Of a DNA stretch of 60,207 bases, positions 7,507 through 31,251 are shown piece after piece. Source of the DNA: Gammaproteobacteria bacterium (GTDB lineage: Bacteria; Pseudomonadota; Gammaproteobacteria; Acidiferrobacterales; Sulfurifustaceae); NCBI GenBank assembly GCA_029863005.1, contig JAOTWF010000008.1, forward strand, positions 1 through 60,207. The letters run 5' to 3'. The position numbers and the translations under genes are program-made. Numbering within the stretch: position 1 is the first letter of the stretch; each line of letters opens with the position of its first letter. The notes below the pieces were generated by a model. That model did no database searches. It was not told where the DNA came from and was given only the letters and a program-made list of their open reading frames with translations.

Positions 7507-7742
7507 TGGAAGACCGCCGGATGGCGCGGCTGCGCTGGCGTTCCCGCCGGGGACTATTGGAACTGGACGTTGTCCTTAAAAATTTCCTCGATCACTGCTA
7601 TGCCGACCTGACCCCGGCCGAGCAGGAGGCTTTTGAGCAATTGTTGGCTACCCCGGACGAAACGCTAATGGCGTACGTGCAGGGAAGTCAAAATCCACCC
7701 GAAAAAGAGTTAATGCAAATTGTCTCAAAAATCAGAAATTAA
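7506..7742 (+). CDS. sdhE: SdhE FAD assembly factor
   Basis: This 78-residue protein has the RRGLLELD motif (RGxxE) that contacts the flavoprotein in the SdhE/YgfY (CptB) family, which promotes covalent flavinylation of SdhA. The ATG at 7506 overlaps the sdhB stop (TGATG). An alternative ATG at 7521 would give MARLRWRSRRG, which is also a normal-looking N-terminus. Its position right after sdhB fits its role. Confidence 0.9.
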   Translation: MEDRRMARLRWRSRRGLLELDVVLKNFLDHCYADLTPAEQEAFEQLLATPDETLMAYVQGSQNPPEKELMQIVSKIRN

Positions 7743-8166
7743 TCTGATTTTAAACATAAAAGTATCTCATCTTTTGGCCGGGATATTTTTTTTCGTTCAT
7801 CTTGGCGCCATGGCTCTGGGAGCCGTCATCCCCATCGGTTGGCCTTTGCGTGTGGTCCTCTGGGGTCTCCTTGGATGGAATCTGTATTACTCCCTGATCA
7901 CTCATGCCTGGCGCTCCGGCCCCATGGCCATACAGGCCATTGAGCTTGATAACGAAGGCGTGGTTTCGGTGCGGTTGACAGGCAGCGATACATGGCAGCA
8001 GGCCCGTATCACCAGCCATTTTGTGCATCCCTGGCTGACGTTGATGTCGTTACGGTTGGAAAGCCGCCGCTGGCCGATGAACTTGGTGATCGCCGCGGAT
8101 GCGGTCGAGCCGGAGCCGTTCAGGCGTTGGCGCGTCGCCCTGAAACTTCAAGCGGTAGAGGTGTGA
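7720..8166 (+). CDS. ygfX: YgfX/CptA-like inner-membrane protein
   Basis: The product of about 148 residues has two hydrophobic helices near the N-terminus (about 16-37 and 41-60) followed by a soluble domain containing SHFVHPWLTLMSLRLESRRWP, matching the YgfX layout. In E. coli ygfX is the partner of ygfY (sdhE), and the same order is seen here. No ATG exists at the front of the frame. The best start is TTG at 7720, inside the end of sdhE, giving a 23-base overlap. The end overlaps the convergent nadB gene. Confidence 0.75.
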   Translation: MSQKSEINLILNIKVSHLLAGIFFFVHLGAMALGAVIPIGWPLRVVLWGLLGWNLYYSLITHAWRSGPMAIQAIELDNEGVVSVRLTGSDTWQQARITSHFVHPWLTLMSLRLESRRWPMNLVIAADAVEPEPFRRWRVALKLQAVEV

Positions 8167-9766
8167 GAACGGTGTCCTCGGGAGTTCCCGCTTGGGGCTG
8201 CGGGTAGTCGCGGGTGTAGTGCAACCCACGCGATTCGCGGCGCGACAAAGCGGAGCGGATGATCATTTCAGAAACCAACAATAAATTACGCAATTCAATG
8301 AGATCGTTCGTTACCTTAAAGTTACTGTAGAACTCCCGAACCTCCTCTTGCAGCATGCTGACCCGGTGTTGCGCCCGTTGCAGTCGTTTGTTGGTGCGCA
8401 CAATGCCGACGTAGCTCCACATGCCGCGGCGCAGTTCATCCCAGTTATGCGAGACCACCACCTGCTCATCGGGGTCGGTGACACGGCTTTCGTCCCAGGC
8501 CGGCAGACTTTCCGGGACCGGTCCAGCGGAAGGGAGAGATTTCAGAATATCCTCAGCCGCGGCCTTGGCGAATACTAGGCACTCCAATAGCGAATTGCTG
8601 GCGAGACGATTTGCGCCATGCAGGCCAGTGAAAGAACATTCACCCACGGCGTAGAGTCTATCAAGATCAGTTCGGGCACAAAGGTCGGTCATGACCCCAC
8701 CGCAGGTGTAATGCGCTGCCGGCACTACCGGGATCGGCTCACTCGTGATGTCGTAACCGTATTCCAGGCAGCGCTGGTAAATCGTCGGAAAATGGTCCTT
8801 GATGAAATCCGCCGGCTTGTGGCTGATGTCGAGATGCACGTAATCGAGGCCACCGCGCTTCATTTCGTAGTCGATGGCGCGTGCCACGATGTCGCGCGAG
8901 GCCAACTCGCCGCGCGGGTCGTGATTCTGCATGAAGGGTTGGCCGTCCGGTAGCGTCAGCTTCCCGCCTTCGCCGCGCACCGCTTCAGAAATCAGGAAAG
9001 ATTTGGCGCGCGGGTGATACAGGCAGGTGGGGTGAAACTGCACGAACTCCATGTTGGCCACGCGGCATCCGGCGCGCCAAGCCATGGCTATACCGTCGCC
9101 GGTTGAGGTGTCAGGATTGCTGGTAAAGAGATAGGCTTTGCAGGCCCCGCCTGTGGCGAGCACCAGAAATCTCGCGCCATAGGCGCGAATATGACCATCT
9201 TCCTTATCGAGGGCGTAGACGCCCAAACTGCGGTTGGGACCCGGGCGATCAAGCTTCTGGCTCGTGATCAGATCGATGGCGATGTGGTTCTCGTGCAGCG
9301 TGATATTCGGGTGACGGCGCACCTGGGCTTCCAGCGTTGTTTCCATGGCGCGGCCGGTAGCATCGGCGGCGTGGATCACCCGCCGGTGGCTGTGGCCGCC
9401 TTCGCGCGTCAGATGATACTCGATCAGTCCATTATTTTTTTCCTGGCTGAAAGGCACACCGTGCTCGATGAGCCAGCGGATCGCCCCCGGACCTTCGCGT
9501 ACGGCAAATTCCACCGTGTCTTGGTGGCACAAGCCAGCACCAGCGCTGATAGTGTCCTGAATATGCGACTCAAAACTGTCTTCTTCTGCATTCAGCACGG
9601 CGGCAACGCCGCCTTGCGCATAGAGACTGGCGCCTTCCGTTAGCGCCGCTTTGGCGAGGATGGTGACCCGGGCCTTGTCCGCAATGCGCAGGGCCAGGCT
9701 TAAGCCCGCGATTCCGCCGCCGATAATCAGGACATCCGAGGGCGGGGCAATGGGCATGAGAGTCAT
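8120..9766 (-). CDS. nadB: L-aspartate oxidase
   Basis: The flavoenzyme oxidises L-aspartate to iminoaspartate, the first step of quinolinate and NAD synthesis. The N-terminal VLIIGGGIAGLSLALRIA is the FAD-binding motif. LYAQGGVAAV, HPTCLYHP and VRGEGG are the family counterparts of the succinate dehydrogenase flavoprotein motifs, and HGANRLASNSLLECLVF is characteristic of NadB. I start at the ATG complementing 9764-9766; an ATG three codons later (9757) is equally possible, and a longer frame to 9826 is less likely. No clear ribosome-binding site precedes either. The divergent nadB/rpoE arrangement is conserved in enteric bacteria. Confidence 0.92.
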   Translation of the reverse strand: MTLMPIAPPSDVLIIGGGIAGLSLALRIADKARVTILAKAALTEGASLYAQGGVAAVLNAEEDSFESHIQDTISAGAGLCHQDTVEFAVREGPGAIRWLIEHGVPFSQEKNNGLIEYHLTREGGHSHRRVIHAADATGRAMETTLEAQVRRHPNITLHENHIAIDLITSQKLDRPGPNRSLGVYALDKEDGHIRAYGARFLVLATGGACKAYLFTSNPDTSTGDGIAMAWRAGCRVANMEFVQFHPTCLYHPRAKSFLISEAVRGEGGKLTLPDGQPFMQNHDPRGELASRDIVARAIDYEMKRGGLDYVHLDISHKPADFIKDHFPTIYQRCLEYGYDITSEPIPVVPAAHYTCGGVMTDLCARTDLDRLYAVGECSFTGLHGANRLASNSLLECLVFAKAAAEDILKSLPSAGPVPESLPAWDESRVTDPDEQVVVSHNWDELRRGMWSYVGIVRTNKRLQRAQHRVSMLQEEVREFYSNFKVTNDLIELRNLLLVSEMIIRSALSRRESRGLHYTRDYPQPQAGTPEDTVLTPLPLEVSGRRANA

Positions 9767-20130: not shown

Positions 20131-20512
20131 TCGGTTCTTGTGTCTATCAAGCATTGGATTAGTCGGCACGATGGCCCTTTCTCGGAATCGGCCAGCGGCG
20201 CATACTCAAAATGTGCGATTACCGCGTTCACGCCATGATTACCTGTCCGACACATATTTCCCTCCGTACAGACATGACGTAGAAAAGATAGATTCTGTAA
20301 TCTCCGGCTGGTCTTTGGATAATCTTGTTGGACAATATTTTCGTTCCTGTAGCGGGAGATATGCTTGCCATCCCTTGTCATGTCGTCCATGAAGCGGTGG
20401 TGGAGGGGGGATGAAACGGTATTAGGCCTGGACGCTATCCGTAACGTTTAACGGATTTCATCCTGTTTCGATACATGACAAAATATACTGTCAGGAGGTG
20501 CTATCGGCGAAT
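20131..20512 (+). other. 382-base non-coding stretch before the oxygenase gene
   Basis: No convincing reading frame was found. It holds a hairpin ATCCGT/ACGGAT near 20437-20456 and an inverted repeat TGACA-N8-TGTCA overlapping the AGGAGG site at 20493-20498. A promoter for the downstream gene is expected here but could not be fixed. Composition looks more A+T rich near the end than in the core genes. Confidence 0.4.
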
Positions 20513-21214
20513 ATGAGTAGCGACATCATTCATCTGGGTATGAAAGCCATTGAAGTCTGGCCGAAGAATTGCGAATCGGAGATATGTGGCGATCCCACCA
20601 TCCACAAGATCACGTTTAAGGATACTCAGGAATACCATCCTCGTCTGATCGCCAAAATTCTTGAACTTGAGGAAAACCATCGCCTACGCAAGCGATATTT
20701 CCGTGGCGCGTGCGGCACAAAGCTGCATCATCTGGAGAAGTGGGCCAGCACCGAGGCCGAGTTGTTGACGGCGCGCGCTAAAGCGCTATTCCGCAAGTTG
20801 CTTGATTGTGACCAGTCGATTGTCGACTTGTGCTGGGCGAATGTCTACCGCCAAGGCGACTACTGCCTGCCACACAGCCATCTGCGCTCGACGGCGAGCG
20901 TGGTGTATTGTCTCGAACCCGGCGATGAAGATCCGGACGATGTTCAGAGTGGGAGGTTGTGTTTTGTCGACCCGCGATTACGCGATTGCTGTCAACATCA
21001 GGAAGGTTGCATGACGACGCCGTTCTATCCCGGCATGGTGGCTGGCACGATGCTGATATTTCCCAGCCAGCTGGTACATACCGTCAATCTCTATACCGGT
21101 AAGCGACCGCGCATCACCCTTTCGTGGAATATCAACAAGAATGTGCTGCCTGGCTCGTCTATACCAACGAACGTGGGCAACGAAATGTCAGGGAATGCTA
21201 AATACCGACCCTAA
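20513..21214 (+). CDS. 2OG-Fe(II) oxygenase-like protein
   Basis: The 233-residue protein resembles the putative 2-oxoglutarate/Fe(II) oxygenases of the 2OG-FeII_Oxy_5 type. YRQGDYCLPHSHLRSTASVVYCLEPGD supplies the first His ligand (H121, possibly H123). GRLCFVDPR follows, then GTMLIFPSQLVHTVNLYTG with the distal His (H189), and GKRPRITLSWNIN with an Arg to bind 2-oxoglutarate. Family members hydroxylate diverse substrates, and no substrate can be given here. Eleven cysteines is unusual for its size. AGGAGG lies 14 bases before the ATG, a long spacing; GTG at 20498 overlaps the site. It is tail-to-tail with a small membrane protein gene, sharing the stop region. Confidence 0.72.
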   Translation: MSSDIIHLGMKAIEVWPKNCESEICGDPTIHKITFKDTQEYHPRLIAKILELEENHRLRKRYFRGACGTKLHHLEKWASTEAELLTARAKALFRKLLDCDQSIVDLCWANVYRQGDYCLPHSHLRSTASVVYCLEPGDEDPDDVQSGRLCFVDPRLRDCCQHQEGCMTTPFYPGMVAGTMLIFPSQLVHTVNLYTGKRPRITLSWNINKNVLPGSSIPTNVGNEMSGNAKYRP

Positions 21215-26675: not shown

Positions 26676-28256
26676 TCATTGGCTGCGCTTTTTCTGCTTA
26701 TGCTGGTCATAGCGAAAGCGCCAGTAATGAACCAGCGCTTTCAAATTGGAAATCCACAGGGCGAGCCTTCCAATGGTCCTGTGCGGGTTAATGGGTTCAG
26801 ATAACAACTCCGGCCAAGCCTTCTGAATGGCGCGTTGAAATAGAAGATAGTTAGGGTCTCTCCGGTAACGCTCGTCTACGCCAAGGAGTGTCGCGAATAC
26901 CTGGCGACAATTGTAAGGCGTAAAATTTTCACGCCAGGCAATATCGAATTCAAGTGTCGTCATCGCCAGCCAGTTTCCATAATCCTGCTCCCACTCTAAC
27001 AGGTCGAGCAGCTTGACGTGGTTCTGTTGACCGGCATCCGCCAGCCATTCCCGGAAATGTTCGACAAGAAACGGATGCGTTGATCCATATTCAAGCCACG
27101 CCAGGAGTTCTGGCGTGAACCGTACATGGTCGGCATGAGGAAGCTTTCGGCGGAATGCGCAACGTCCCACCTCGGCGCCGCTGCCCGTAAGCACCGCCTT
27201 GGTGCGGCCAAAGTGATTGAGGATCGCCTCCGCATCGTGTCCGTAGTGGTCGTGCGCCAGATAAACGTTTCGTTTGAACGTCAAACTGAACTCGGGTGTC
27301 ATGGTCGATGTCGCGTGGACCACCTCGTGCGGTAGTCCGAGTTGCTTGAGCAGCCGTGCGGGAACATCAATATCCGGGAAATGATCGGGCATTCTTCCCT
27401 GTCGTAAAGTCATAATGCAAACAAGATTTGATACCTCTCTTGCGGTCGCGAGCATCAGTCGGCTATCGAAACCGGCAGTCAGCGAAAGTGCAATGTCAAA
27501 ACGTGCCGCCGCCGCACGGATCTGGCCGGACATCAGGGTGCAAACGCGGTCGATGGCTATTTCGGGAGTCAGGGACTCCAGGGGAGCTGATGGCCAGAAG
27601 CGAGCGCTTTTTCCCGTGCTGAGATTGAGCCAGTGATTTGGCAGCAAGTGCCGGAGGCCTTTGAACGTTGATGCCGCGGCAGGAAACCGGGCCTCAAATG
27701 TCCGACGGAAAGTCTGTGTGTCCAGGTAATCCAGCGCAGTTTCATCTGGTGTAAGCGACAACATCTCGCTGGCAATTCCCGCCTGCGACATGACCCACAT
27801 GGTGCCCAAAACAACTGGATCGGTATAAAAGGCCTGACGTTGTCCCAGGGCATCGTGGAAGAGAAATGATTCTTCTGCGCTTGTGGCGACCAGCAGCCAG
27901 CGCCCGCCGAACCGATTTGTCGCCTCGATTAGGGCATCACGGCTCGTGAAGTGGTGAAGAAGTGCTCGCACAATATCTTCGTTGGTCGTATCCGGAGTGA
28001 GAGGATCCAGGAGGTGCCCGATCAGCGTCAACTCACGGTTGCCATCCTTCACCTGGGTACAGGCGAGGTCGGGATGGGCGGTGAGTTTCAGTCCTTTCCC
28101 GACGGTGATCCGCTGCCAGTCTGCCAGCTGATCGGCAAACGCCGGACCCAGGATAAACTGGTTGAAATAACGATCCCTTCCCGGTGGACGGCGTGATAAG
28201 TTATCCTGGATTTCCTGAGAACGAACAAGGTGCGCATTAAGGTTGATACTTGGCAT
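26676..28256 (-). CDS. Asparagine-synthetase-like ATP-dependent ligase lacking the glutaminase cysteine
   Basis: The 526-residue protein has the layout of the asparagine synthetase superfamily. An N-terminal degenerate amidotransferase-like domain includes FLFHDALGQRQAFYTD at about 131-146. The C-terminal adenylating domain has SLTAGFDSR (258-266) in place of the SGGLDSS pyrophosphate loop and LTGSGAEVGR (356-365) in place of the GDGADE block. The product begins MPSIN, so the Cys2 nucleophile of class II amidotransferases is absent. Family relatives that lost glutaminase include lasso-peptide cyclases and beta-lactam synthetase, which form intramolecular amide bonds. It is divergent from a tiny repeat-peptide gene and from a full asnB. 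The ATG at 28256 has no clear ribosome-binding site. Confidence 0.75.
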   Translation of the reverse strand: MPSINLNAHLVRSQEIQDNLSRRPPGRDRYFNQFILGPAFADQLADWQRITVGKGLKLTAHPDLACTQVKDGNRELTLIGHLLDPLTPDTTNEDIVRALLHHFTSRDALIEATNRFGGRWLLVATSAEESFLFHDALGQRQAFYTDPVVLGTMWVMSQAGIASEMLSLTPDETALDYLDTQTFRRTFEARFPAAASTFKGLRHLLPNHWLNLSTGKSARFWPSAPLESLTPEIAIDRVCTLMSGQIRAAAARFDIALSLTAGFDSRLMLATAREVSNLVCIMTLRQGRMPDHFPDIDVPARLLKQLGLPHEVVHATSTMTPEFSLTFKRNVYLAHDHYGHDAEAILNHFGRTKAVLTGSGAEVGRCAFRRKLPHADHVRFTPELLAWLEYGSTHPFLVEHFREWLADAGQQNHVKLLDLLEWEQDYGNWLAMTTLEFDIAWRENFTPYNCRQVFATLLGVDERYRRDPNYLLFQRAIQKAWPELLSEPINPHRTIGRLALWISNLKALVHYWRFRYDQHKQKKRSQ

Positions 28257-28426
28257 GGCGGTTAGATGATTATGAATAGAGTCATAACTCGTATGCGCAC
28301 AGTTAGATATGGAGTGAAATTGTTTGTATCGAATGTAAATAAAAGTATTTGAATTTCTTGCTAACCAGCGCAAAATTGCATAAGTCTTTATTTTACGAGT
28401 GTTTAGGCGGTATTCGATAGCTGCCG

Positions 28427-28432
28427 TATAGT
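28427..28432 (+). promoter_or_regulatory. Candidate -10 element for the peptide gene
   Basis: TATAGT lies about 120 bases before the peptide start, with only a poor -35 match (TAGGCG, 17 bases upstream). It would place the transcript start near 28439. Weak support. Confidence 0.3.
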
Positions 28433-28442
28433 GTCAGTTGCC

Positions 28443-28553
28443 ATGACCCGCGGCCGGGAGGAGGGTGAAAGCTAAGGACAACCGGTCGAAAGGGCTGTAG
28501 CAGCCGGCAACTCAACGGATGGTTAAGCAATAACTGAAATGGAGGTAGGCACC
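28443..28553 (+). ncRNA. Possible structured 5' leader of the repeat-peptide gene
   Basis: The 111 bases before the peptide ATG contain several complementary segments. GGCTG/CAGCC (28493-28505) forms a hairpin with loop TAG. GGCCGG (28452-28457) can pair with CCGGTC (28482-28487), enclosing a purine-rich stretch. GTTA/TAAC (28522-28534) stands just upstream of the GGAGG site. No known riboswitch consensus was recognised. It could be an untranslated regulator or simply a long leader. Confidence 0.35.
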
Positions 28554-28631
28554 ATGCGAAATATCTTTATTGGTGGTGGCGGACAAACCGATCCGCGCAT
28601 TGGTGGTGGCGGACAGACTGACACGATATAG
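28554..28631 (+). CDS. 25-residue tandem-repeat peptide, candidate modified-peptide precursor
   Basis: An ATG preceded by GGAGG (28541-28545, eight bases away) opens a 25-codon frame. After MRNIF it encodes IGGGGQTDPR (residues 6-15) and IGGGGQTDTI (16-25), then TAG. The eight shared codons of the two units differ at three positions, all third bases (CAA/CAG, ACC/ACT, GAT/GAC), with no amino-acid change. That is good evidence the peptide sequence is under selection and not a chance frame. It lies between two asparagine-synthetase-family genes and is followed by a hairpin and terminator. It has no hydrophobic stretch, signal peptide or double-Gly cleavage motif of the usual kind. Function unknown. 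Confidence 0.65.
   Translation: MRNIFIGGGGQTDPRIGGGGQTDTI
28569..28628 (+). repeat. Two tandem 30-base units inside the peptide gene
   Basis: Unit 1 is 28569-28598 and unit 2 is 28599-28628. The first 24 bases match except for three synonymous third-position changes; the last two codons diverge (Pro-Arg against Thr-Ile). Confidence 0.85.
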
Positions 28632-28650
28632 TTGACTAGCCACTTGTGTG

Positions 28651-28678
28651 ATCGGTAACGGTATTCATCGTTACCGAT
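28651..28678. promoter_or_regulatory. Perfect 10-base inverted repeat between peptide gene and asnB
   Basis: ATCGGTAACG and CGTTACCGAT flank an eight-base loop. There is no T-tract after it, so it is not itself a terminator. It may be a protein-binding operator or a stabilising 3' hairpin of the peptide transcript. Confidence 0.5.
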
Positions 28679-28702
28679 GGTGTATGTGATATTTCTAACC
28701 TA

Positions 28703-28739
28703 ATGGCCCCTAGCTGTTCGCGGCTGGGGGCCATTTTTT
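28703..28739 (+). terminator. Strong intrinsic terminator or attenuator just before asnB
   Basis: A 12-pair stem (ATGGCCCC with GGGGCCAT, extended by TAGC/GCTG with one wobble) and an eight-base loop are followed by six T residues. It ends 16 bases before the asnB start, so any transcript entering asnB from upstream must read through it. Confidence 0.85.
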
Positions 28740-28755
28740 AATTGCATCCATTATT

Positions 28756-30669
28756 ATGTGCGGCATTGTAGGTCACTTCAGTCGTAACAGTACTGTTGAA
28801 GTTTCGGTATTGGATTCCATGCTGGATAAGATTGCACACCGCGGTCCAGATGATCGCGGTACCTGGGCTCAGGGGTCGGTTGGACTTGGCCACGCACGCC
28901 TGAGCATTCTGGACCTGAGCAACCTTGGCCATCAGCCGATGGTCACGGCCGACGGCCAGGGAATCATTGCCTACAATGGAGAGGTCTACAATTTCCAGGC
29001 ACTGCGCCATCGCCTGGAAGAATCGGGAATACGCTTTCGCAGCCATACGGACACAGAGGTAGTGCTCTACGCATTGCACCATTGGGGGCCAGAGCAATGT
29101 GTCGCGCAGTTTAATGGAATGTTCGCCTTCGCTTATTACGACAAGCGCGATCAAACGCTCTGGCTGGGAAGGGATCGGTTAGGCATCAAGCCGTTGTATG
29201 TAGCCCGAACCGGCACCAGCCTTGTGTTCGGCTCGGAAATCAAGGCAGTTTTGAGACACCCAGAGGTGGTAGGCCGTCCGGATATGCACGCACTCGTCAC
29301 TCAGATCGTCTACGAGCGGCTCGACGGGACATGGACGCCATTTGAAAAGATAGAGTCGTTATTGCCCGGAACGCTCCTCAAAATCAATGGCAACGACCAG
29401 ACAATTAATTATTTTGACCTGCTGCGCGATCTACAACCGCAACGCATTCTGGATGGCACCAACGAAGACTTTTCGATGCAACTTCAGCGCTTCGAGGAGC
29501 GCTTAGACGCCAGTGTGGGCATGCATTTGCTCAGCGACGCGCCACTTGCAACCATGTGCAGTGGTGGACTCGACTCCAGCCTAATTACTGCCTTTGCCAA
29601 GGATCACAAGCCGGACATCGTTGCCTACATAGCAGACATTGAGGGCGTGCAAGAATCCGAGGTTGAGCGCGCGCAGAGCGTTTGCAAACATCTGGATGTT
29701 GAGTTGCGCCCGGTAACAGTTAATTTGGAGAACTACTATCGGTTATGGCCGCAGGCGGTGTATGCGAATGACCAGCCCAATAATTTTTCGCAGAATATTG
29801 CTGAATTGGTAGTGGCAGAAAAGATTCAGGAAGATGGATTCAAGGTCGTGCTCACTGGCGATGGGGCCGATGAGTTATTTGGAGGTTATCAATGGTATGT
29901 GATCGCGTACAAAATGTGGCGGCGACGCAGACTGCACGCCAAATGGATTCATGACAATCGGTTCTTTCGATTTCTGGGACGTTTCCACCCGCGACTGGCG
30001 CCAATAGACCTGGACGCTTTGGCCGAGTCGCCATTTACACCTATTGCGCTGCTTGGTGATCAGGGCATGACTGGGCGGCAGACATGCGCAATGGATGGCG
30101 CCAAACGGCAGTTACGAAGTGCGGCGCTGTTCCACAAATTGCAACCATTGCCGCTGCATGAGGAACGTGCTTTTTTGGCCAGATCCTTTGCGGATTTCTA
30201 CGTCCATCTCGGAGAAGCCCTGCGCAGCAATGATCGTATGGCGATGTGGCGTTCCGTAGAGGCACGGGTGCCCTTTCTTGAAAATGAGTTGATCGATTTC
30301 GGAATCCATCTGCCGTACAAGGCGAAATACCACCGCGGCAATGTCAAGCGATTAATCACGGCACTTGCCATGAAGCGCTTGCCGCATAATGTGGTGCGGC
30401 TGCCCAAAATTGGTTTCATGGTTTCCGAATACATGTGGCAAGGCATGGCCGATTTTCTAAAGAATGGCATGGTTGCGGAGTTATTGAAGTGGGGTCGAGC
30501 AGATCAACCTGAAATTCTGCGCCTAATTCAGACCCAGCCGTACTTCGTGTTCCGTCTGTTGTGTTCTGAAATCTGGGCCCGAATTTACTTTGGAGGCGAG
30601 TCGCTAGAACAGTTGAGTGATGCGTTGTTACGACAGAGGCGGCTTGCCAGCTCGAATACAATTAACTGA
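28756..30669 (+). CDS. asnB: Glutamine-hydrolysing asparagine synthetase
   Basis: The 637-residue enzyme makes asparagine or an analogous amide using ATP and glutamine. Cys2 of MCGIVGHFS is the glutaminase nucleophile. AYNGEVYN (about 72-79) and TDTEVV (98-103) complete the glutamine site. SGGLDSS (269-275) is the pyrophosphate loop, and LTGDGADELFGGY and SVEARVPFLE follow. All catalytic motifs are intact, unlike in the divergent relative. No ribosome-binding site precedes the ATG, and a terminator ends 16 bases upstream, so expression is probably controlled by read-through or initiation nearby. Whether its substrate is free aspartate or a peptide or sugar intermediate cannot be told. Confidence 0.88.
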   Translation: MCGIVGHFSRNSTVEVSVLDSMLDKIAHRGPDDRGTWAQGSVGLGHARLSILDLSNLGHQPMVTADGQGIIAYNGEVYNFQALRHRLEESGIRFRSHTDTEVVLYALHHWGPEQCVAQFNGMFAFAYYDKRDQTLWLGRDRLGIKPLYVARTGTSLVFGSEIKAVLRHPEVVGRPDMHALVTQIVYERLDGTWTPFEKIESLLPGTLLKINGNDQTINYFDLLRDLQPQRILDGTNEDFSMQLQRFEERLDASVGMHLLSDAPLATMCSGGLDSSLITAFAKDHKPDIVAYIADIEGVQESEVERAQSVCKHLDVELRPVTVNLENYYRLWPQAVYANDQPNNFSQNIAELVVAEKIQEDGFKVVLTGDGADELFGGYQWYVIAYKMWRRRRLHAKWIHDNRFFRFLGRFHPRLAPIDLDALAESPFTPIALLGDQGMTGRQTCAMDGAKRQLRSAALFHKLQPLPLHEERAFLARSFADFYVHLGEALRSNDRMAMWRSVEARVPFLENELIDFGIHLPYKAKYHRGNVKRLITALAMKRLPHNVVRLPKIGFMVSEYMWQGMADFLKNGMVAELLKWGRADQPEILRLIQTQPYFVFRLLCSEIWARIYFGGESLEQLSDALLRQRRLASSNTIN

Positions 30670-31175: not shown

Positions 31176-31251
31176 TGGCTCCCCGGGACGGACTCGAACC
31201 GCCGACCCGGTGATTAACAGTCACCTGCTCTACCGACTGAGCTACCGGGGA
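31176..31251 (-). tRNA. tRNA-Asn (anticodon GTT)
   Basis: A full cloverleaf of 76 bases reads on the minus strand: acceptor stem TCCCCGG/CCGGGGA, D-loop AGCTCAGTCGGTAGAGC, anticodon stem GGTGA/TCACC with loop CTGTTAA, T-arm with GGTTCGAGTCC, and encoded CCA (31176-31178). The anticodon lies at 31216-31218. Confidence 0.96.

Follow-up and report, generated by a model that had tools for sequence, protein, structure and literature searches.

We identified a short repeat-peptide gene that lies divergently beside a gene for a cysteine-less relative of the asparagine synthetase AsnB in a gammaproteobacterium of the Sulfurifustaceae (assembly GCA_029863005.1). The stretch analysed, called the window below, covers positions 1 to 60,207 of contig JAOTWF010000008.1. 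The best current reading of the pair, judged from comparative sequence data, is a RiPP-like system (RiPP, ribosomally synthesized and post-translationally modified peptide) of an undescribed, non-lasso type, in which the repeat peptide would be the substrate and the AsnB-like enzyme its ATP-dependent modifier. An earlier sequence-only reading had noted the 25-codon frame with its GGAGG site and tandem repeat (MRNIFIGGGGQTDPRIGGGGQTDTI), an AsnB-like protein without the glutaminase Cys on one side and a complete AsnB on the other, and all of these are present as it described them (Table 1). The peptide gene was also found in L067 (a sister of the window), L148 (genome G002), L033 (genome G016) and L034 (genome G011, which is in one contig). 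A literature search returned no description of the repeat peptide or of the peptide/enzyme pair among the matches listed.

The peptide has 25 amino acids in the window, 27 in L067, 26 in L148, 43 in L033 and 55 in L034, with two, two, two, four and five repeat blocks, respectively. In these 15 blocks from five genomes, which include one variant GGGEQ block in L148, departures from the commonest base number 0, 1 and 26 of 75 each at codon positions 1, 2 and 3. The variation is almost wholly at third codon positions and therefore shows that selection maintains the peptide sequence. An in-frame 3-base deletion and different C-termini distinguish the window peptide from that of L067. An antisense CPPPP frame was rejected, since the fourth Gly codon of the third L034 repeat (GGT) is a stop on the opposite strand in that frame. 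Within the 60 kb window, the peptide gene is the single occurrence of two GGG[GE]Q blocks in one frame, and no such frame arose in 50 first-order Markov replicates of the window or in 50 of the GC-rich L034. When open reading frames (ORFs) of 18-110 aa with a Shine-Dalgarno sequence and repeated exact 5-mers were sought within 6 kb at 11 loci, one each was found in the window, L033 and L034, and none at the other eight. A profile of the five peptides detected 4 of the 57 genomes of the order at E <1e-7, namely the window's own genome (G000, 95% complete), G002, G011 and G016. The next row came again from the G011 peptide, at another stretch of it (E 0.001), and every remaining row, above 0.02, was treated as background and left unread. 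The peptide was found in 2/369 genomes of the class sample, and viral contigs gave four single-pattern matches for the repeat, never with a second block in the same frame. A search with a single peptide overlooked the known peptides of the window itself and of G002, so it says little about absence of the peptide elsewhere; its 10 non-peptide rows were treated as background, and five of them were read (L056, L058, L061, L063 and L064).

The peptide gene is divergent from the Cys-less enzyme gene in four loci (the window, L067, L033 and L034), with start-codon distances of 298, ~300, 225 and ~240 bases. The sequence-only reading had proposed a search for the repeat near asparagine-synthetase genes elsewhere and would have fallen if no relative kept the two together; the repeat stands beside the Cys-less gene in three further genomes. 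The enzymes of G016 and G011 are the closest relatives in the family (61-63%), and that of L067 matches at 94% over residues 1-340, where its contig ends. L067 came from a contig pattern scan, in which the first pattern set gave no matches and a second, different set led to this locus at 94%. In a tree of 26 proteins, in which the L067 sequence is partial, the four peptide-linked enzymes form a single clade (100/100). Besides the window, 91 AsnB-like loci were scanned (11 + 80; 1.09 Mb; at least two contigs entered twice, probably three; L043 and L088 partly masked), and two GGG[GE]Q blocks in one frame occurred in L033, L034 and L067 only, which are exactly the other members of the clade. Repeat ORFs in distant AsnB-like loci (for example L074, L082, L091, L097, L103 and L113, and likewise L136, L139, L141 and the masked L088) were discarded by eye as low-complexity or masked. 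The enzyme branch (>1000 bits) is present in 3 of the 57 genomes of the order, and all three carry the peptide; by our own arithmetic, which ignores kinship, the chance that three enzyme genomes all fall among the four peptide genomes is 4/29260. The enzyme was detected in 2/369 class genomes at E 1e-100, both within the family, and in 1/398 phylum genomes at E 1e-60, its own, while relatives at 40-50% are present in other phyla; viral contigs gave no match to it. The two enzyme paralogues of the window's own genome (45-47%) have no such peptide nearby.

The enzyme gave no match in Pfam or NCBIfam, including Pfam at E 5, and is recognised neither as a lasso cyclase (NF033535) nor as Asn_synthase (PF00733); a search of PDB sequences with the enzyme profile also gave 0 matches. 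Alignment of the enzyme with complete AsnBs by hhalign gave E 3.2e-14. An AlphaFold2 model (pLDDT 83.7, pTM 0.86; residues 1-25 and 288-297 poor) matched carbapenam synthetase, beta-lactam synthetase, TsnB9 and AsnB in Foldseek (3e-16 to 1e-9), with the carbapenam and beta-lactam synthetases ranking first (3e-16 to 7e-13). In VIA-align, the matched AsnB-fold chains scored Z 20.6-21.5 over 368-410 residues at 3.7-4.3 Å (AsnB 21.5, beta-lactam synthetase 21.2, carbapenam synthetase 21.2), human ASNS scored 18.3-18.7 and the next family 8.5. A PP-loop-like site, T[AS]GxDSR, is present in 11/11 aligned homologues; the residues common to the eleven relatives are T260, G262, D264, S265 and R266 of this site and, further on, T357, G358, S359, G360, E362 and R365. 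The residue aligned to residue 1 of E. coli AsnB is residue 32, an Asn in the window. Since 31 residues precede this position, the enzyme cannot be an N-terminal-nucleophile (Ntn) amidotransferase, and the N-terminal catalytic Cys of glutamine-hydrolysing AsnB is absent. Taken together, model and profile identify the enzyme as a diverged member of the AsnB fold, with a predicted Ntn-like N-terminal domain and a PP-loop synthetase domain.

Only the window and L067 have the complete AsnB next to the pair. On that side, L033 has a convergent amidohydrolase gene, and L034, which adjoins RND efflux genes, has one of these in convergent orientation; the complete AsnB is thus best treated as accessory or coincidental. 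The idea that two AsnB-family genes flank the peptide therefore holds for the window and L067 but not for G016 and G011, where the Cys-less gene alone does so. Likewise, the compact RiPP-type locus first proposed is borne out in so far as the peptide and the Cys-less enzyme recur in unlike neighbourhoods, but the complete AsnB drops out as a core part. In the window, the AsnB start lies 16 bases past the terminator T run (28740-28755), with no ribosome site by eye; L067 has ~325 extra bases between the terminator and AsnB.

In the proposed chemistry, the enzyme would adenylate the C-terminal carboxylate of the peptide and pass the activated carboxylate to an amine other than ammonia from a glutaminase of its own, so that a macrolactam, amide or conjugate may form. 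The repeats would serve as several cores, which a protease with its gene elsewhere would release or which would work without cleavage. We give even chances to a RiPP-like pair whose enzyme acts in this way on the C-terminal carboxylate. We prefer this carboxylate to a side chain as the activated group since the G016 precursor contains neither Asp nor Glu, so a lasso-like side-chain isopeptide would be unavailable there. Lasso peptide systems also place an AsnB-family enzyme beside a short ribosomal peptide, and their cores carry an acceptor Asp or Glu at position 7-9. The window peptide alone would permit Gly1-Asp7, but the G016 precursor offers no lasso acceptor; the lasso-type B2 leader peptidase PF13471 had no match in the window's own genome at E 0.01, in a search that matched in 3/14 control genomes (above cut-off in one). 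Lasso chemistry is unlikely on these two grounds, in agreement with the sequence-only reading, and unlike lasso systems the locus has tandem repeats and an enzyme unseen by PF00733. That reading had also seen no leader-binding RRE protein, protease or dedicated exporter, and the 10 window proteins scanned likewise include no RRE, protease or peptide exporter (RREs were not searched genome-wide); a C39-peptidase match was obtained at another place in the genome, on C76.

The beta-lactam and carbapenam synthetases, the first Foldseek matches of the model, use a Cys-less AsnB fold to close an intramolecular amide. They share 12-16% identity with the enzyme in the alignments, act on small-molecule substrates and are not separated from AsnB by VIA-align. 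Among enzymes of the AsnB family, PMC13060819 describes several that act on ribosomal peptides besides the lasso cyclases, namely TsrC, ScdTA and PesC. The nitrilobacillin cluster (PesC) and the C-terminal amidases TsrC and ScdTA resemble the present system in that AsnB-like enzymes work at the C-terminus of a RiPP; the nitrogen source of PesC is glutamine or ammonia, and all three keep a Glu-Tyr dyad (PMC13060819), which its section 10 reports for PesC, TsrC, ScdTA, AsnO and E. coli AsnB. Unlike these three, the enzyme described here has no N-terminal Cys and no dyad at the positions aligned by reading, and unlike in the nitrilobacillin cluster no MNIO was seen among the neighbours scanned.

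Several observations weigh against this RiPP-like reading. Where the beta-lactam and carbapenam synthetases have TGYG with their catalytic dyad Tyr, the enzyme has TGSG and thus no Tyr there, a comparison that covers this one residue of the dyad. Since VIA-align ties AsnB with both synthetases, the resemblance to cyclases is not specific. The Glu-Tyr pair (PMC13060819) is absent at the positions aligned by reading (TGSGAEVGRCAF), where the ADE..GGY stretch reads AEVGRxxF in this enzyme family. The putative leader peptide is 5-8 residues long, and no maturation gene recurs with the pair among the neighbours scanned. In G002, the peptide and its leader region are present with a DUF3530 hydrolase in the divergent position, and a 46% paralogue of the enzyme was all that was found; this genome is ~87% complete in ~350 contigs, so the enzyme could have been missed, but the two genes do not have to be neighbours. 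The wider enzyme family also has a carbohydrate context. Neighbour clusters common to at least 3 of 38 loci (one contig in twice, the window and L067 included; glycosyltransferases and AsnB named by Pfam, ABC ATPases by reading) comprise family-2 glycosyltransferases in 10 loci, complete AsnB in 9 (the window and L067 counted), GT4 glycosyltransferases in 6 and a polysaccharide-type ABC ATPase in 6, so that 16/38 loci have a glycosyltransferase, such an ATPase or a complete AsnB. The ancestral substrate of the enzyme may therefore be a sugar.

The counts for family-2 glycosyltransferases, complete AsnB and the ABC ATPase, together with the short leader and the lack of maturation genes among the neighbours scanned, would suit a peptide that is an unmodified small protein binding or regulating the enzyme, with the enzyme acting on a polysaccharide or small molecule. 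We consider this rather unlikely, given that L033, L034 and 15-42 kb of the window hold no member of the shared glycosyltransferase clusters and that the repeat number varies from 2 to 5, as in multi-core precursors. It is very improbable that the oligo-glycine amine of a cleaved peptide is the nucleophile, which the enzyme would join to a carboxylate on a different molecule, for instance a uronic-acid polymer: such a role would fit an enzyme without its own ammonia source whose family is found near glycosyltransferases, but it is wholly inferential, and no cleavage enzyme or polymer genes were seen with the pair.

The region around the frame suggests two further explanations. The stretch before the peptide gene is 128/133 identical (96%) to L067, more conserved than the enzyme coding sequence (916/967; peptide frame 66/75), and is alignable also in L148; the G002 match to the leader region is 74% over query bases 2-269 (E 1.1e-42), in a genome where the enzyme is not adjacent. 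A conserved regulatory RNA made of leader, small frame and 3' hairpins, with the enzyme merely a neighbour, would account for this conservation. The 0/1/26 codon pattern argues against it, as does the lack of a leader match at the G016 and G011 peptide loci, which keep both peptide and enzyme. Folding of the leader was no better than shuffles (z -0.15), and one both-sides change among 27 predicted pairs was found in three sequences, too few for covariation, so the leader is not convincing as a structured RNA. A known RNA family was rejected, as Rfam gave no gathering-level match at the leader (six permissive matches lie below cut-off). The outermost predicted helix may be untranscribed, because its bases 28431-28435 overlap a TATAGT (28427-28432) that is -10-like by eye only and was not listed by the promoter scan. 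We therefore regard a regulatory RNA as improbable. Terminator-like hairpins with T runs follow the peptide, by eye, in L067, L148, L033 and L034 too. The window order of peptide, terminator and AsnB would fit an attenuator, in which Gly and Gln codons sense tRNA charging and the terminator gates the complete AsnB. This was rejected as extremely improbable, since L033, L034 and L148 keep the peptide and a terminator-like hairpin with no AsnB after them and L067 sets its AsnB farther from the terminator.

Table 1. Features of the repeat-peptide locus and of related loci (window coordinates unless a locus is given).
Feature	Position	Strand	Basis or remark
Repeat peptide gene	28554-28631	+	25 codons; relatives in L067, L148, L033, L034
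Shine-Dalgarno GGAGG	28541-28545	+	GGAGG also in L067, L148, L034; GGAG in L033
Cys-less AsnB-like enzyme, 526 aa	26676-28256	-	divergent from peptide gene
Conserved stretch before peptide gene (promoter end and 5' leader)	28421-28553	+	sequence conservation
Hairpin 3' of peptide gene, 12-pair stem	28651-28678	+	z -5.92 for 28632-28745
Predicted intrinsic terminator closing the peptide transcript	28702-28739	+	15-pair stem then T run; shuffles mean 0.4
Complete glutamine-hydrolysing AsnB (MCGI...), 637 aa	28756-30669	+	TIGR01536, 406.3 bits against a 267.1-bit cut-off
Thiogranum three-gene set	L075:4650-5953; L078:4702-5960; L080:4690-5948		Pfam names checked on L080 only

The other neighbours in the window are ordinary (an HbpS-like gene, a membrane transporter, a GspH-like pilin, an aminotransferase and a tRNA, with uvrB, acpS and a penicillin-binding protein named by reading). 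The tRNA (31179-31251, minus strand, GTT anticodon by reading) stands shortly after AsnB and is a possible integration point for a module. A 2-oxoglutarate-Fe(II) oxygenase (20498-21214; PF13759, TIGR02466 below cut-off) is encoded ~5.4 kb from the enzyme gene. In the wider family, the Thiogranum loci have a WelO5-like Fe/2-oxoglutarate oxygenase, a GNAT protein (weakly FeeM-like) and then the AsnB-like enzyme; small ORFs common to these loci appear contained in larger conserved genes. Two loci each encode two AsnB-like family members (L070:5739-7259 and 8270-9751; L093:5974-7467 and 7510-9030).

More tentatively, and at somewhat below even chances, the RiPP-like pair may represent a new two-gene RiPP class, in which a leader-poor, multi-core GGGGQ precursor is paired with a glutaminase-less AsnB-fold ligase outside PF00733 that would form ATP-driven amides at freed C-termini. 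Genome mining would have missed such a class because Pfam overlooks the enzyme and the precursor has only 25-55 residues. A PF00733 survey counted ~3,800 members near RiPP elements, ~300 of them uncharacterised (section 9 of PMC13060819), and the present enzyme would escape a survey of this kind because Pfam does not match it. If the peptide is indeed what the enzyme acts on, AsnB-family peptide chemistry gains a new branch with this pair, and very small precursors with repeats go unnoticed next to unannotated enzymes.

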